Program-made: the position numbers and the translations under genes | Source: a virus | IMG/VR virus record: IMGVR_UViG_3300040751_004981 | Coordinates: 1 to 32,103 of that record | Direction: 5' to 3' (one strand) | Length of the DNA stretch: 32,103 nt | Notes under the pieces: model-generated | Seen by the model: the letters and a program-made list of their open reading frames with translations, nothing else | Told to the model about the DNA's origin: nothing | The model's database searches: none | Shown here: positions 20,524 through 29,655 of the stretch, one piece after another | Numbering within the stretch: the stretch's first letter is position 1 | How the letters are laid out: the number at the start of each line of letters is the position of its first letter

Positions 20524-23283
20524 ATGACATTTGTTGAGCTAAATAAAACAAACTTTGATAACACGAGAATAAAAGTATTTCCGCAACAAAATTATGTTAG
20601 CGGTTCTTCGTTGTGCTTAAATACTAGTATTGGAGAATACGGGTGTGTTCCAGCTGTAAGAACTAGATCTAAGTCTATAAAAGAATTTGATAATAACTCA
20701 AACTTAAAGTCTACAATAAATGGTTACGAAGAAATCGAAGAAAATAAAAAAAGAAATAGAGGAACGCACCAACAAAGAAATCCGTCGCTAAATTACCTTT
20801 TAAGTCAGATAATTGGTCAAGGTGAGGTTATAAATAAATCACAATCAGACAATTATTTTTTTAAGATTAAAAGATCTACACTTACACATCGAAGACCTGA
20901 AGCATCAACAGATCTATTAGGAATAGAACTCGCAGATGACAATAAAAATCAAACATATAATAAAAATATTGTAATTAAAAATAATCTTTATAATAAATAT
21001 AAAAAAATATCTAGCAGAGCTGAATCGTATAATCGTGGTTTTTGTAACTATAATACATTGAATTTTTTTACTTTAGGTGCTCACCCGGATCATATAGCAG
21101 ACGGTACGACAGAGAAAAAAACGCATAAAACTTGTGTAGTTTATCCAAACCCAAATAACAATACATACACACCTTCTTCGATGACAGGAAATGAAGCAGA
21201 GTATACAATTTCATTTTGGTTAAATCCTAGAAGAACAAACGTCAATGGTTATGCATATAATCCAGGAACTATCATTAGCATTCCTGGATTGATTAATGTA
21301 TATTTGGTTAAAGGAACGTCACTAGATGAATTTGGCTATACAGACAAGTTTAGACTACTTCTTGATACAAATGTTGCTTCATATAGAGATCCAACTGTTT
21401 CTTTGCTTTCTAATAGTAGTGCAACAGTTTCAAACTTTACTAGTATAGTAACAGACGATAACTTGCTTGATAAAAATAAATGGTATCATATTAGCATTGT
21501 CAGAAAAAATAGTTTAATAAGATTATATGTCGATGGAGAATCAGTTCTAGATGATGCTGATGATATAGAAAATATGTCATCTATTAGCTCTACTATTTCT
21601 CCGATTATTTATATTGGTAACAAACACGATTATAATTCAACTTCAGACTGGACAACTAACTATTCAGATTTATATGACTACTACTTTGGATCAGATGCTG
21701 CTTTAGAATTTTCTTCATTTGATAATGGAAATGCTACGGGTCGAGAAGATGCAATAGCTTCTTTTGGAGGAACACTTCCAGACTTTGAAGATGGCTTAGA
21801 TGTTTCAACATCAGACTCTTTAGCGCTAAATGCTGAATTAGCAGATATTAGAATATATTCTTCAGCAAGGCTACAACAACAAGTCTTATTAGATATGAAG
21901 AACTATGTAGACAGTTTAACTAATGAACTGCATTTAGACTTAGTTTTTTATGTTCCGATATATTTTATTCCTGAACTAAGAAAAAGAAAAATTGATGTTA
22001 TTTATGGGACAAAAGAAACTTTAACTATTGATGGTCCAGTAAATCCGTATTTGTCGCATAGAGTTTTAGGACACGAAGTATCTGTAGAACATTTCTTAAA
22101 TGAATTTGTTCAAAAGTCAAGACCTTTTATTGAAGGCGTTGGTTCTGCTGATTTAGAAGGAACAACGGCAGATGCAGTTATAAATGTAGATGAAACAATT
22201 CAGCAAAAGATTAATAAATCATTTTTGTCTGATGTTGCTACTAAGACTTTACGTCAAAATAATCACATCTTACGTAATCATCTTTTATTACCTAATGATA
22301 ACGGGAAAACATTACCAAGTTGGAAACTAATTGATGAAGTTTATCCTGATGCAAAAACTTTTGTATTCTATAAAGACATTTTTGGTAATCATGTCAAAGG
22401 TTTGGTTTCTGTTAATGAAATAGTAGATATAAGTAAAATAGAAAATACATCAGGATTGTTTAGTATTGGACCTAGAATTAGTAATTTCCCAAATGGAAGC
22501 TTATATAGAAAGAATAGAAAACCAGATAGCGATAACTTAAAAGAAAAAATATCACTAACAGGAAACATAAATCCAGACAATGAAGATATTAATAGTATTT
22601 TAGCATCTTTAACACTAAACAGTTCACTGATGAGAACTCCTAGTATATTACAATCAGCTAGCCCTATTAATGTATATAGTTATAATAATTTTTCATTACT
22701 TGAAAGACGTATTTTAGTACTCTATGAAATGACTTCTTATTTAGGTGAAACTTATAGTCCTATTTTTGAAATACCGAATGCTTTTTATAACGAAAAAGTT
22801 AGAGAAGAAACAATTGAACTAGAAGATAGAGATATAGCAGGAACTGCAGGTGCTCTTCAAATTAAGTTAAAAGATAATCAAAGTGGTGGAATGTATAGAG
22901 CTGATTGTTTGACGCCACATGCAAAGTGGAATTATGTCGGCAATGTATTTAGAAACGAAGGTTTTATTAGTCTTTTACATCCATCTTTAGCATCTTTTGG
23001 CGAATTATCTTTTGACATAAAATTTAAGGGTGAACATGGCCTTAATGTTTTTGAAATAAATGTTCCTTGTGAAGCTGGTGAACATAATGTTTCAATAAAT
23101 AGTTCTTATAAAAAGATTAAACCTACAGACTATAATGCAGATCATAATGCTGACTTTGTTTTTATAGATACTATTAACTTGCATGATGAAAATCTTAATA
23201 TAGTAGCTAAAGCTAATTTATCACAACCTCTATCTAAGAGAATAACTGATAAATATAACTTTAGACTTAAATTGGATTATTAA
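20524..23283 (+). CDS. Large LamG-domain tail protein with C-terminal 'KLDY' module
   Basis: This is a 919-residue protein starting at ATG behind AAGG, 8 bases after the previous stop. Residues 1-200 are basic and polar. Residues ~215-460 form a LamG/concanavalin A-like domain: EYTISFWLNPRR near 223, NKWYHISIVRK and SLIRLYVDGES near 318-340, IIYIGNKH near 360, and AELADIRIYSSARLQQQVL near 437. The core has a long acidic insertion between strands. Residues ~500-830 are unrecognised. The last ~70 residues share their layout with the upstream 405-residue protein. Glycan-binding surface or fibre role is likely. It is the last structural gene of the cluster, and its stop overlaps the resolvase start (TAATG at 23281-23285). 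Confidence 0.7.
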   Translation: MTFVELNKTNFDNTRIKVFPQQNYVSGSSLCLNTSIGEYGCVPAVRTRSKSIKEFDNNSNLKSTINGYEEIEENKKRNRGTHQQRNPSLNYLLSQIIGQGEVINKSQSDNYFFKIKRSTLTHRRPEASTDLLGIELADDNKNQTYNKNIVIKNNLYNKYKKISSRAESYNRGFCNYNTLNFFTLGAHPDHIADGTTEKKTHKTCVVYPNPNNNTYTPSSMTGNEAEYTISFWLNPRRTNVNGYAYNPGTIISIPGLINVYLVKGTSLDEFGYTDKFRLLLDTNVASYRDPTVSLLSNSSATVSNFTSIVTDDNLLDKNKWYHISIVRKNSLIRLYVDGESVLDDADDIENMSSISSTISPIIYIGNKHDYNSTSDWTTNYSDLYDYYFGSDAALEFSSFDNGNATGREDAIASFGGTLPDFEDGLDVSTSDSLALNAELADIRIYSSARLQQQVLLDMKNYVDSLTNELHLDLVFYVPIYFIPELRKRKIDVIYGTKETLTIDGPVNPYLSHRVLGHEVSVEHFLNEFVQKSRPFIEGVGSADLEGTTADAVINVDETIQQKINKSFLSDVATKTLRQNNHILRNHLLLPNDNGKTLPSWKLIDEVYPDAKTFVFYKDIFGNHVKGLVSVNEIVDISKIENTSGLFSIGPRISNFPNGSLYRKNRKPDSDNLKEKISLTGNINPDNEDINSILASLTLNSSLMRTPSILQSASPINVYSYNNFSLLERRILVLYEMTSYLGETYSPIFEIPNAFYNEKVREETIELEDRDIAGTAGALQIKLKDNQSGGMYRADCLTPHAKWNYVGNVFRNEGFISLLHPSLASFGELSFDIKFKGEHGLNVFEINVPCEAGEHNVSINSSYKKIKPTDYNADHNADFVFIDTINLHDENLNIVAKANLSQPLSKRITDKYNFRLKLDY

Positions 23284-25093: not shown

Positions 25094-25654
25094 ATGTCTA
25101 GAAGATATGCAACAACAGTAAATGAGCAAGCTGATGGTGGAGACGGCGCTGTAGGTCAAAGAAATGCTTTTGCTAGTGATATTCCAGGTCGATCAGACGC
25201 CGACTCAAAGCTCGGAGCTAGCGGACCAAGTATTTTTAATGCTGATATAGAGTCTCCAGAAGAAATTGAAAGAATATTTAAAAATCAACTTCAAAGCGTT
25301 GCTGCTACAGACCACCCAGACTTTAGCAATGGCGTCGATCTAAATTACGGTAAAGCAAAAATTGACAGTCCTTTGCTTAAAGGTGAAAAGTCACTTAAAG
25401 ACTATGCAGCAACTGATGATAAGCCGCAATATGGTGCACCGAATATTACAACTGGAGATATGAATGCGCCTAGCGAACGAACTGATTCTTCTGACCTGCC
25501 AAGAAGAAATGCTGGATATGGTAGTAGAATACCTGGCGAATTACATGAACATGTCCCAGCAGTTACTAGAGATAGAATAGGATCTTATTTTAGCAACAAT
25601 GATAGAAGATCATCAAATGGGCTTGGTGTAAGTCATCCAACAAGAAGATCTTAA
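25094..25654 (+). CDS. Unknown protein, first of a tandem paralogue pair
   Basis: This is a 186-residue protein starting at ATG behind a strong AGGAG about 7 bases upstream. It is polar, Gly/Asp/Asn/Arg-rich and probably largely disordered, with no hydrophobic core segment, cysteine motif or membrane segment. It is clearly related to the next gene: both share RYAT..N.QA at the start, GQR, PDFS..V.LNY, DKPQYGAPNI and AYG/GYG.R in the same order, plus LG...P at the end. No enzyme motif is visible. In T4-like genomes, small proteins of this style may belong to baseplate, neck or head completion, but the location between primase and recombination genes gives no direct hint. I do not recognise a family. 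Confidence 0.6.
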   Translation: MSRRYATTVNEQADGGDGAVGQRNAFASDIPGRSDADSKLGASGPSIFNADIESPEEIERIFKNQLQSVAATDHPDFSNGVDLNYGKAKIDSPLLKGEKSLKDYAATDDKPQYGAPNITTGDMNAPSERTDSSDLPRRNAGYGSRIPGELHEHVPAVTRDRIGSYFSNNDRRSSNGLGVSHPTRRS

Positions 25655-25660
25655 TAAAAA

Positions 25661-26245
25661 ATGCAAAGATATGCAACAGCTAAAAATTCTCAGGCAGCTT
25701 TTCCTTTTGAAGGGCAACGTGATAAGATTAAATTTAGAAATAGAAATAATCAAGTTAGTGAAGATCTAGGTGTTTCAAACATTTCTAGATTAAGAACTCA
25801 ATTTGATAATGAATTCCTAGATAGTTATGACCCTTTAGATGCATTTGAAGTTGACGCTGGAAACCTTAAAGGGAACCCAGACTTTTCTTCAAGTGAAGGG
25901 GTAAGTCTAAACTATGACAAAGATTTAGAAAAAAGAACTTATAATCTTGTGGATGTTGTCAATAGTGTAACAGATAAACCACAGTATGGTGCTCCAAATA
26001 TAAAAGTATCTAAAGAGGCTACAATCGATCCAAATAGAAATAGAGATCCTAACGTGCTAGGAAAACGAAGTACTGCTTATGGTATTCGCTATAGAACAAA
26101 CTTTAACAATAATGCAGGTGTTGAAGCAAAAGAAGACATGAGAAAGTATATTACCAGCGGCGAGTCAATTCATAATGGAGGAAGTATAAACAGATTAGGC
26201 ATAGCAAATCCTTCAGGTGAAAGTTATAATATTGTAGATAACTAA
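25661..26245 (+). CDS. Unknown protein, second of a tandem paralogue pair
   Basis: This is a 194-residue protein starting at ATG 6 bases after its paralogue's stop. There is no clear SD (AATAAAAA immediately upstream), so reinitiation after the first gene is likely. Shared landmarks with the upstream protein are RYAT..N.QA (residues 3-12), PDFS..V.LNY near 74-87, the near-identical DKPQYGAPNI near residue 106, and a YG.R segment near 136. Outside these islands the two diverge strongly, so the duplication is old or evolution is fast. The sequence is polar, with many Asn and Arg, no cysteines and no membrane segment. It is followed by a 67-base gap, one of the longest in the window, before the recombination gene. 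Confidence 0.6.
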   Translation: MQRYATAKNSQAAFPFEGQRDKIKFRNRNNQVSEDLGVSNISRLRTQFDNEFLDSYDPLDAFEVDAGNLKGNPDFSSSEGVSLNYDKDLEKRTYNLVDVVNSVTDKPQYGAPNIKVSKEATIDPNRNRDPNVLGKRSTAYGIRYRTNFNNNAGVEAKEDMRKYITSGESIHNGGSINRLGIANPSGESYNIVDN

Positions 26246-26286: not shown

Positions 26287-26309
26287 ATCCTCATAAGCAG
26301 AATGAGGAT
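26287..26309 (+). promoter_or_regulatory. Hairpin covering the ribosome binding site of the SbcD-SbcC fusion gene
   Basis: ATCCTCAT (26287-26294) and ATGAGGAT (26302-26309) form a perfect 8-base-pair stem with a 7-base loop. The right arm contains the GAGG (26304-26307) that is the SD for ATG 26313. In RNA read through from upstream genes the SD would be paired. In RNA that starts within the hairpin it would be free. This resembles the T4 mechanism known for genes such as e and 49, where long early transcripts hide the SD. Confidence 0.55.
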
Positions 26310-26312
26310 TTA

Positions 26313-29300
26313 ATGACATTTAGATGTGCCCATATAGCAGATGTTCATTTTAGAGGTCTTAAGCGACATGATGAATATCGTGCTGTTTTCAATACATTTT
26401 TTGAGAAGTGTAGAGAATTAAAACCAGATGCTATTTTTATTGGTGGAGATATAGTTCATTCAAAAACTCAAGGAATATCTCCTGAAGTTATTGATATTCT
26501 TCACTGGTGGTTTAAATCAATGGCAGAAATTGCACCTGTGCACGTTGTATTAGGTAATCACGATGGCCTTATTTTAAACCATGACAGACAAGATGCTATT
26601 ACCCCTATAGTAAATGCAATTGGGTCTCCAAATATTCATCTGTATAAAAATAGTGGTGTCTATCCTATTAAAGATGGGTATAATTGGTGTGTATTTTCTT
26701 GTTTTGATGAAGAAGGATGGAAAGATGTCAAGCCTGTAGAAGGTGACATTAATATTGCAACTTTTCATGGTGGAGTTCTAGGAAGCAAGACAGACTCTGA
26801 TTGGGATATTAGTGGCGAAGTTGCTGAAAGTTTCTTTGATGGATATGACTTTACTTTTCTAGGTGATATTCACAAGTTTCAGTATATTGATCATGAAAAA
26901 AGAATTGCTTATCCTGGATCAACTATACAGCAGAATTATGGTGAAGATGTTAAAAAAGGATTCTTATTTTGGGAGATTAATAGCAAATGGGATTACAAAA
27001 GCACATTCCATCAGCTTAAGAATTTACGTCCGTTTATTACTATTGACTGGAAAGATGATTACGATACAACAGTATCTTCTTTAAGGAATAAACCTAAAGG
27101 CGCTAGGTTTAGAGTTAGATCTGACGTAGCATTGACGCAAGCAGAAATTAGACTTATTTATTCGTATCTTAAAGAGAGTAAAGAAGCAGCTGAAATTGTT
27201 TTTAAGATTGACGCTAAAAAAGATTTTGCAAAAAACCAGTCTGCAAAGGTCAAGAGCTTAAATCTTTGGGATGAAAGCCAAAGAAATAGAATTGTAGAAA
27301 ACTATTTTCAAGAAAGTTTAGATGAAGAAGTCTTAGATGAAGTAAAAGGTTTATTTGCTAAAACAATCGATGAAATTCCAGAAGATAGTGTTAAAAAACC
27401 TACATCTTGGTCCTTAAAAAAGCTTAATTTTGAAAATACTTTTGCATACGGCAAGAATAATGAAATTAACTTTGATAATATGAATGGAATTGTTGGTATT
27501 TTTGCTAAAAACGCTAGTGGAAAGTCATCAATTCCAGGGACAATTATGTATAACTTGTTTAATGGCACTGATCGTGGATCATTAAAAAATCTACATGTTG
27601 TTAATTCTAGAAAAGGTAACTGTAAATCAACAGCAGTTATTGAAACAAATAGTAAACAATATTCTATTGAGAGAAAAACAGTTAAAAAGCAAAATAAAAA
27701 TGGCTCCGTTTCAGCTACAACTTACCTTGACCTTAAGAGACAAATTGATGGTATTACTGTTGACGAGTCTGAAGAGCAGCGCAGAGAAACAGAAAAAATT
27801 TTACGTGAACTTGTAGGAACTTCTGAAGACTTTCTTATGACATCCTTTGCTTCACAAGGTAGCATTAATTCTTTTATTAAAGAAAAAGCTACAAGTCGAA
27901 AGACAATTCTTACAAAGTTTATTGGTCTTGATATCTTCGAAGATCTTTATAAGCTGTCAAGAGATCATTACAATCTTCTTAAAGGACAACTTATGTCCAA
28001 AAAGCAAAGAGACTGGTCTAAAGAAATTGATAATGCTTATAATGAAATACAAGAGTTAGAAGAGAAAAAGAAAGCTTTCAAAGAAAAAGAGCTTGAACTA
28101 AAAGAGAAAGAAAGCAAGTTAAGATATCAAATCTCACAAGCACAAAATCAATTTGAAGGTATTGATATTCAGACTCTTGAAAATAAAAAGAATACGTTAA
28201 ACCTTTCTATTAAGACGACAAGAAGTAATATTGAAGACCTTAATGATTTAATTGAGTCTAATAAAGCTACAATTCAAAAGCTTGACTCTGCTTTGTCTAA
28301 AATTAATATCGATGAATTAAATGCTGATAAAGAACGATTTGACGAAGCTAAGATCAAGCTAAATACTTTATTAAACGAACTAAGTAATAACAAGAAAGAC
28401 CTTAAAAACTCAGAAGAAAGTCTAAAAATTCTTAATTCTGTCCCTTGCACTTCACCTTGCGTTAAAAATCCTGCTTTAGACGCTGGAATTGACCTTTCAA
28501 GTTGCAAGTTTATTTCTAGAGCACATAAAAGTGCAGAGCAAAAAAGCAGTTATGAAACCAACATTAGTAAACTAACTAGTTCTGTTAATGAAATCAAAGA
28601 CTTTGTTAAGGACTTTGAAAAGATTCAAATTACTAAAAAAATTAAGATTTATAATGATAATGTTCTTAAGCTTAAAAACCTTAAGTCAAAAGATCAAAAC
28701 TTTACAGAAAAACTAAGTCTTTTAACTGAAAATCTTTCTTCCAAAGAAAAGGACTATAATAGAGTTGTAGAGGAATATGATAATGCTGTAAAACTAATGT
28801 CTGCAACTGATCAAGAAAGACTCGAAGCATTAAGTAATTCTCTAAAAGATTTAGAATTTAGTATCAATAACGTAAGTGCAAAGTGGTCAAAGTCTGAAGG
28901 ACGTATTTCTTATCTGCAAGACACAATTCTAAGATATGAAGAAGAACGAGAAGAATTTGAAGAGCTTAACGAGAAGAATAAAATTTATGACATATTTTCA
29001 TCTGCAATGTCCAAGAAAGGTATCCCAGTAACATTGATCAAAGACATGCTTCCTGTCTTAAATAATGAAATTAAAGATATCCTTTCAGCTGTTGTTCCAT
29101 TCACTGTAGAACTAGAGATTGAAGATGGAAGTAACTCAATGGATGTTTATATTAATTACGGTGATTCTAGAAGAATTATTGAGTGTGGCAGCGGAATGGA
29201 AAAAATGATCTCATCTATTGCTATTCGTGTAGCACTAATTAATATAAGTTCTTTACCTAAGTCAGACATCTTTATTATTGACGAAGGATTTGGTGCTTTA

Positions 29301-29459
29301 GACGACTCAAATCTAGAAGCATGTAGTAGACTATTACAGTCTCTTAAGAAGTGGTTTAAGACAATTCTTATTATCTCACACGTTGATGCTGTCAAAGATA
29401 TTGTAGACGATACTATAGAGATTATGTCTAATGGAAAGGATGCATATGTCAAGTATTAA
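26313..29459 (+). CDS. Fused Mre11-Rad50 type nuclease-ATPase (SbcD-SbcC, T4 gp47-gp46 homologue)
   Basis: This 1048-residue protein joins two enzymes normally made separately. Residues 1-~330 are a calcineurin-like phosphoesterase nuclease of the SbcD/Mre11 type: Asp10 and His12 (ADVH), Asp46 and His49 (GGDIVH), GNHD 81-84, His152 (FHGG), and Asp185/His187 (GDIH). After a short linker, residues ~365-1048 are an SbcC/Rad50 ATPase. Its Walker A is AKNASGKSS with Lys404, its signature-like segment is GSGMEK near 959-964, Walker B is IFIIDE with Asp990/Glu991, GALD follows as D-loop, and His1023 is the switch histidine. Residues ~560-930 are a coiled coil whose apex carries Cys712, Cys716 and Cys731. 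The protein would process DNA ends for recombination-dependent replication and repair. SD is GAGG, held in a hairpin. Confidence 0.92.
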   Translation: MTFRCAHIADVHFRGLKRHDEYRAVFNTFFEKCRELKPDAIFIGGDIVHSKTQGISPEVIDILHWWFKSMAEIAPVHVVLGNHDGLILNHDRQDAITPIVNAIGSPNIHLYKNSGVYPIKDGYNWCVFSCFDEEGWKDVKPVEGDINIATFHGGVLGSKTDSDWDISGEVAESFFDGYDFTFLGDIHKFQYIDHEKRIAYPGSTIQQNYGEDVKKGFLFWEINSKWDYKSTFHQLKNLRPFITIDWKDDYDTTVSSLRNKPKGARFRVRSDVALTQAEIRLIYSYLKESKEAAEIVFKIDAKKDFAKNQSAKVKSLNLWDESQRNRIVENYFQESLDEEVLDEVKGLFAKTIDEIPEDSVKKPTSWSLKKLNFENTFAYGKNNEINFDNMNGIVGIFAKNASGKSSIPGTIMYNLFNGTDRGSLKNLHVVNSRKGNCKSTAVIETNSKQYSIERKTVKKQNKNGSVSATTYLDLKRQIDGITVDESEEQRRETEKILRELVGTSEDFLMTSFASQGSINSFIKEKATSRKTILTKFIGLDIFEDLYKLSRDHYNLLKGQLMSKKQRDWSKEIDNAYNEIQELEEKKKAFKEKELELKEKESKLRYQISQAQNQFEGIDIQTLENKKNTLNLSIKTTRSNIEDLNDLIESNKATIQKLDSALSKINIDELNADKERFDEAKIKLNTLLNELSNNKKDLKNSEESLKILNSVPCTSPCVKNPALDAGIDLSSCKFISRAHKSAEQKSSYETNISKLTSSVNEIKDFVKDFEKIQITKKIKIYNDNVLKLKNLKSKDQNFTEKLSLLTENLSSKEKDYNRVVEEYDNAVKLMSATDQERLEALSNSLKDLEFSINNVSAKWSKSEGRISYLQDTILRYEEEREEFEELNEKNKIYDIFSSAMSKKGIPVTLIKDMLPVLNNEIKDILSAVVPFTVELEIEDGSNSMDVYINYGDSRRIIECGSGMEKMISSIAIRVALINISSLPKSDIFIIDEGFGALDDSNLEACSRLLQSLKKWFKTILIISHVDAVKDIVDDTIEIMSNGKDAYVKY
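29435..29440 (+). promoter_or_regulatory. Ribosome binding site (AAAGGA) that decides the start of the zinc-ribbon gene
   Basis: AAAGGA lies 5 bases upstream of ATG 29446. In-frame ATGs at 29431 and 29440 would start before or within the SD, so 29446 is preferred. Confidence 0.65.
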
Positions 29460-29655
29460 GTTTGAATGGATAAACGAGTCTGATGAAAAGACTTTGCCTA
29501 TCGATTGTCCTGTTTGTCATAATATGATAGTAACTGTTGAAGATGTTAATTCTTTAAGAGAAAAAGAGTGTTGCGCTGACTGTGATATAACATATTATTA
29601 TCCTAACAAAGAAAAGTGGGATAAAGGATGGCGTCCGGACATAGTTAGAGATTGA
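29446..29655 (+). CDS. Small zinc-ribbon protein
   Basis: This is a 69-residue protein. Two cysteine knuckles, CPVC (Cys21, Cys24) and CCADC (Cys42/43, Cys46), 18 residues apart, form a likely zinc ribbon. A Tyr/Trp-rich C-terminus follows (ITYYYPNKEKWDKGW). Tiny zinc-ribbon proteins of this kind occur near replication and packaging genes in many large phages, and their targets are mostly unknown. The start at 29446 overlaps the SbcD-SbcC gene by 14 bases, so it is probably translationally coupled. It is not a full transcription factor or HNH nuclease: no His-Asn-His pattern is visible. Confidence 0.7.
   Translation: MSSIKFEWINESDEKTLPIDCPVCHNMIVTVEDVNSLREKECCADCDITYYYPNKEKWDKGWRPDIVRD

Follow-up and report, generated by a model that had tools for sequence, protein, structure and literature searches.

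In phage T4, gp46 and gp47 process DNA ends for recombination-dependent replication and packaging and act in host DNA degradation. The SbcD and SbcC proteins of the Herelleviridae, encoded in tandem in that order, are the same two enzymes (Mre11 and Rad50) with the same presumed role. Fusions of the two into one chain were described in 2011 by Yoshida, Claverie and Ogata, whose set comprised Mimivirus R555 and twelve others, among them a Bacillus phage, plasmid-borne cases, bacteria and several eukaryotes (PMC3175470). These authors argued that abundant R555-like genes in marine metagenomes are phage-derived, and they reported that R555 has Asp for P. furiosus His206 and His for the last Asp of GDxxD; the hook is not discussed (PMC3175470). 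Elsewhere, the CxxC zinc hook is described as conserved in Rad50 homologues from every branch of life and from viruses (PMC5093744). Our literature search for fused SbcCD in phages or for non-CxxC hooks returned nothing beyond the 2011 study.

Here we analyze a fusion encoded in the window, the whole 32,103-nucleotide stretch of viral DNA under study (IMG/VR record IMGVR_UViG_3300040751_004981). The T4 and Herelleviridae systems differ from it in having two genes, a GHxH metal site, a SEGEK or SAGEK signature and a CxxC hook. Two single-chain proteins are closer in form. Microcystis phage Mel-JY01 encodes a full-length fusion (WWT39521.1, named 'AAA domain containing protein') that is about 30% identical to the window protein, carries GDIH and SGMEK and has a primase nearby; its hook, in contrast, is CxxC, and it falls in a separate subclade. 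The fusion on Deferribacter desulfuricans plasmid pDF308 (WP_013008908.1) is of similar length but has GHYH, SSGEK and CxxC and lies outside the phage clade. The initial annotation had set the window protein against the separate proteins of other organisms, eukaryotes included, yet Mre11/Rad50 fusions have been known since 2011, in eukaryotes as well (PMC3175470). Because of that description, and because the phage fusions are a large family of environmental phages with hundreds of members, we regard the fusion as real and useful as a model, and not as new in kind.

A single frame predicted to encode an intact nuclease and an intact ATPase

The gene is one open frame of 1048 codons from ATG to TAA, as initially annotated. 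Its features are as follows.

26304..26308, + strand: Shine-Dalgarno-like GAGGA, 4 nt upstream of the start codon, within the 3' arm of an 8-bp hairpin (from the sequence)
26313..29459, + strand: fused Mre11-Rad50 (SbcD-SbcC) gene, 1048 aa (single frame; Pfam, PHROG and PDB matches to both halves; full-length in contig L001)
26313..27272, + strand: Mre11 phosphodiesterase and capping region, residues 1-320, with D10, H12, D46, H49, GNHD 81-84, H152, D185 and H187 (PF00149; AlphaFold2 model matches SbcD 7dog)
27273..27368, + strand: helix-loop-helix, residues 321-352, predicted to bind the root of the Rad50 coiled coil (two AlphaFold2 helices, pLDDT about 87-92; alignment)
27369..27404, + strand: tether between the halves, residues 353-364 (conserved Y331-W366 spacing; no indel relative to L001)
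27405..27932, + strand: Rad50 N-lobe with Walker A (N400-xx-GKSS), residues 365-540 (alignments; fold match to Rad50 3qku)
27933..28439, + strand: ascending coiled-coil arm, residues 541-709 (AlphaFold2 helices)
28440..28505, + strand: hook apex around VPCTSPCVKNPALDAGIDLSSC, residues 710-731, Cys spacing CX3CX14C (comparison of Cys spacing with relatives)
28506..29012, + strand: descending coiled-coil arm, residues 732-900 (AlphaFold2 helices)
29013..29456, + strand: Rad50 C-lobe, residues 901-1048, with signature SGMEK 960-964, Walker B D990 E991 and switch H1023 (PDB matches; conservation)

Residues 4-188 match the calcineurin-like phosphoesterase family Metallophos (PF00149, 2.8e-12), and residues 247-1039 match the SbcC-like PHROG 77 (5.3e-51). 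Among solved structures, the N-terminal half finds Mre11/SbcD and the C-terminal half Rad50/SbcC, with C-lobe residues 957-1035 matching Rad50/SbcC structures. An AlphaFold2 (AF2) model built with 51 sequences (mean pLDDT 84, pTM 0.50) finds its closest structural matches among SbcD and Rad50/SbcC entries, with a TM of 0.71 to SbcD 7dog and of 0.75 to Rad50 3qku, both by target length; in this model the Rad50 N-lobe opens with a strand at 365-374. Walker A, signature, Walker B and switch His are all present, in ABC lobes split around an antiparallel coiled coil, as in Rad50/SbcC ATPases. The gene is thus predicted to encode, in a single polypeptide, first an intact Mre11/SbcD nuclease and then an intact Rad50/SbcC ATPase, which is the domain order of the fusions of Yoshida et al. 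and agrees with the domain calls of the initial annotation.

A profile search of viral contigs yielded at least 598 confirmed relatives, and 113 loci were examined in detail. Each residue to which the initial annotation had assigned a catalytic role (D10, H12, D46, GNHD 81-84, H152, H187, K404, SGMEK 960-964, D990/E991 and H1023) is in place, and in an alignment of 96 fusions these positions are invariant or nearly so, save for gaps in truncated contigs.

Upstream of the gene, a perfect 8-bp inverted repeat (26287-26309) folds at -9.7 kcal/mol and holds the ribosome-binding site in its 3' arm. The arms are identical in L001, and the hairpin was not found in ten other relatives checked; translational control is a possible function.

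Departures at the metal site and the hook

Two features overlooked by the initial annotation set this protein apart from canonical Mre11-Rad50 (MR). The first is in the nuclease. The ligand set D, H, D, N, H, H, H is present on a matched calcineurin-like fold except that one His, at the second metal site, is replaced by Asp185 (GDIH), a change found in 95 of the 96 aligned fusions. In addition, the final residue of GDxxD is His (H49), a substitution that, on its own, is seen in the Herelleviridae too. Since D185 and H49 match the changes reported for R555, which we compare through its published description, the window protein belongs to the known class of fusions and probably to the R555-like branch. 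The fusions of Yoshida et al. share its domain order, retain the helix-loop-helix and have a predicted tether of 9-12 residues; R555 itself, in contrast, is a 1351-aa protein of a giant virus. In one relative (L075:2085-5282), the catalytic GNHD reads GQHD, and the nuclease there may therefore be altered.

The second departure is at the hook. The two coiled-coil arms are equal in length, and the cysteines at their apex are spaced CX3CX14C instead of the CxxC of a zinc hook. Among the fusions, 68 of 96 carry CX6C at the coiled-coil tip, typically as VPCGDxFPxCKFIK, and 3 more carry CxCX6C; in the window and L001, an insertion gives CX3CX14C. The CxxC form is kept in the Mel-JY01 group and in deep branches. 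Across 41 aligned tips, the two Cys and the VP are invariant, while the identity of the surrounding 129-residue segments to the first is only 19-43%. When viral contigs were scanned with a degenerate DNA pattern for the CX6C tip, 118 frames were recovered, every one of them kin of the window protein (118/118); the 34 that have no Mre11 part all run off the locus end. The predicted fold of one CX6C tip (L010) is a confident loop between two helices (pLDDT 92), a result that says nothing on metal binding or dimerisation.

An initial view of the wide hook as exclusive to the phage-fusion clade was abandoned on finding CX7C in the split SbcC of Moorella phage MTATph1 and CX8C in that of a Paraburkholderia plasmid. 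The conserved wide hook calls into question the stated universality of CxxC (PMC5093744). With D185 in the metal site and a hook other than CxxC, the protein may depart from canonical MR in its nuclease chemistry and in how the hook dimerises. We put forward, as a tentative reading that we hold to be rather doubtful, that single-chain Mre11-Rad50 has, in a widespread phage lineage, been altered at both ends, through Asp in the second metal site and a wide hook (CX6C in the main subclade, CX3CX14C in the window), and that arm pairing may use another metal geometry, a disulfide or no zinc.

Docking helices and tether

The AF2 model, of a single chain, places two helices at 321-332 and 338-352, within the interval (about 290-370) that had been singled out for a helix-loop-helix check. 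They are separate elements, and in the alignment they correspond to the C-termini of Mre11 proteins from phages with two genes. Of 51 relatives, 48 have Y331 and W366 spaced by 35-39 residues, and 50 retain Trp366, the residue at the start of the Rad50 part. From this alignment, the steady spacing and the retention of Trp366, we place the tether at about 12 residues. The initial annotation's claim that the Rad50-contact helices must fit within a linker of about 35 residues therefore falls away: the helices are distinct from the tether at 353-364, so nothing has to fit inside such a linker. A retained helix-loop-helix followed by a short extra tether is also what Yoshida et al. described for fusions, and the observed length agrees with their estimate of 9-12 extra residues, drawn from the T. 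maritima complex (PMC3175470). Docking of Mre11 would be onto the Rad50 root of the same chain; the AF2 pTM of 0.50 is too low to fix the placement of the halves.

Phage fusions form one clade

For a tree, we aligned three structured regions separately and compared the fusions with the pairs of T4, P-TIM40, Herelleviridae, Moorella phage and E. coli; the published fusions R555, Bacillus phage 0305phi8-36 and those of Clostridium kluyveri plasmids are not part of it. All phage fusions in this tree form one clade against the split pairs (SH-aLRT 100), with the Deferribacter plasmid fusion standing outside. Members share GDxH (Asp185), where all split proteins compared have GHxH. They also share an SGM/AE signature; SEGEK or SAGEK is the usual form in the split proteins of phages, and Moorella phage has SGAEK.

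Could the fusion have arisen several times in phages, with the grouping an artefact of joint alignment and long branches? Independent origins do seem to occur, since the Deferribacter plasmid fusion lies outside the clade (AU p 0.039), keeps GHYH and is thus probably independent, although its branch is long and the point is not to be pressed. Within phages, however, clade support is 100, and the derived D185 and SGM/AE are shared across the phage fusions, including the deep-branching L007, L008 and L009. We therefore consider repeated origin in phages very unlikely; the lineage probably descends from one fusion event within phages.

Genomic context and proposed role

With its T4-like terminase and portal, the window virus is, as far as its genes tell, a tailed phage. 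Around the fusion, a primase, a RuvC-like resolvase and the large terminase are conserved; in most loci the primase precedes the fusion, which has the terminase, the portal and a small zinc-ribbon ORF on its downstream side. Fifteen large related contigs (123-284 kb, possibly incomplete) show no SbcC-like match other than the fusion, and 14 of them no other metallophosphoesterase match; the exception, G013, has two more, both small. All 15, as well as Mel-JY01, encode a RecA-family recombinase. As the sole SbcC-like gene in these large relatives, the fusion would have to do the whole job.

Several other features of these genomes are recorded here. The 735-kb phage LR756501.1 (669500-675500, L127) has a fused copy and a separate SbcC-like match, a 618-aa frame near 671-672.7 kb. 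In the window, a small CxxC...CxxC zinc-ribbon ORF (29431-29655) overlaps the 3' end of the fusion, to which it is possibly translationally coupled, and has relatives in 81 examined loci. Between primase and fusion lie two paralogous ORFs (25094-25654 and 25661-26245), 31% identical over 119 aa and both with KPQYGAPNI; among relatives, this pair occurs only in L001. Positions 183-20515 hold a run of large ORFs with no Pfam or PHROG match where tested, and next comes a protein (20524-23283) that has laminin-G-like matches and weak ones to baseplate wedge; this is probably a structural module.

We think it very likely that the gene gives this tailed phage an SbcCD nuclease in the form of a single-chain Mre11-Rad50, and that the enzyme assembles and acts as follows. 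Within each chain, Mre11 would fold onto the coiled-coil root of the Rad50 part to which it is joined. Two such chains would pair through Mre11, through the hook and through Rad50 heads with ATP sandwiched between them, so that a single gene product would yield the usual 2:2 stoichiometry. DNA ends would reach the Mn-dependent nuclease through a gate worked by ATP binding and hydrolysis. By analogy with T4 gp46/gp47, the enzyme would process DNA ends for recombination-dependent phage replication and packaging, with host DNA degradation a possible further role; the RecA-family recombinase and the conserved replication and packaging neighbours fit such a function.

It is highly improbable that the fusion has instead moved off DNA-end processing, for example to become an SMC-like defence or counter-defence ATPase resembling Lamassu LmuB, with a metallophosphoesterase acting on another substrate. 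The PADLOC LmuB model matches residues 366-1029 at 2e-26, and the Asp at the metal site and the wide hook could be read the same way. LmuB proteins are themselves Rad50-like, however, so that such a match is expected, and the PHROG SbcC match is far stronger (5e-51). The nuclease motifs are conserved throughout, and the gene is the only SbcC-like one of the large relatives, in a conserved replication and packaging neighbourhood. No LmuA or LmuC partner was seen near the fusion, where the neighbours are primase, RuvC-like resolvase, terminase and portal.

Authenticity of the junction

An independent IMG/VR contig, L001, encodes the whole protein at 96.9% identity over residues 1-1048. The two genes differ at 253 nucleotides, 211 of them synonymous, with zero indels across 3144 nt; the overall pN/pS of 0.05 indicates strong purifying selection, which is seen in both halves. 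In the tether region there is one synonymous change and no indel. A further contig, L002, backs residues 610-1048 only, at 96% identity. Full-length single-frame fusions were found in 95 of the 113 loci, and in 14 the single frame is cut by the contig end or matched only in part. L008 and L009 have one annotated gene each and are too distant for the single-sequence test used on the 113 loci. Genuinely two-gene versions belong to other phage families (T4, Herelleviridae, Moorella phage). At the linker, where the initial annotation had allowed for a stop, a frameshift or two genes, none of the sampled close relatives has a stop or a gene boundary. That two adjacent genes were read as one through a lost stop or frameshift is scarcely conceivable, and we rejected it: split tandem SbcD-SbcC genes do occur in related phage families, and those of Bacillus phage 043JT007 even share a frame, but the independent contig has the identical junction without an indel, nearly all loci outside the roughly 95 full-length ones are cut by a contig end, and tether length is conserved.

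Two of the 113 loci are broken, both inside the Mre11 domain. In L006 (2944-7169; LR756508.1, a 484 kb phage), a 305-aa ORF interrupts the gene just past the metal-site motif GDIHK. This ORF carries zinc-ribbon motifs and a TnsA-like endonuclease domain (PF08722, 5.8e-6), in the style of a homing endonuclease. The N-terminal fragment gains a novel tail and the C-terminal one has its own start; Rfam found no intron that might account for the break. The fusion of L113 (3304-6544) breaks at this site too, after residue ~194; its two frames overlap, some 60 nt of sequence are added, and there is no endonuclease gene. As L113 and L006 stand well apart in the tree, the site may have been targeted repeatedly.

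Significance for large tailed phages

A naturally tethered MR complex of about 1050 residues and fixed stoichiometry would suit structural and mechanistic work from a single gene. Yoshida et al. inferred a phage origin from short metagenomic reads, and the present search fills in that picture. Among the R555-type fusion genes of water samples, many are probably carried by large tailed phages, in which the fusion seems to be the sole Mre11-Rad50.
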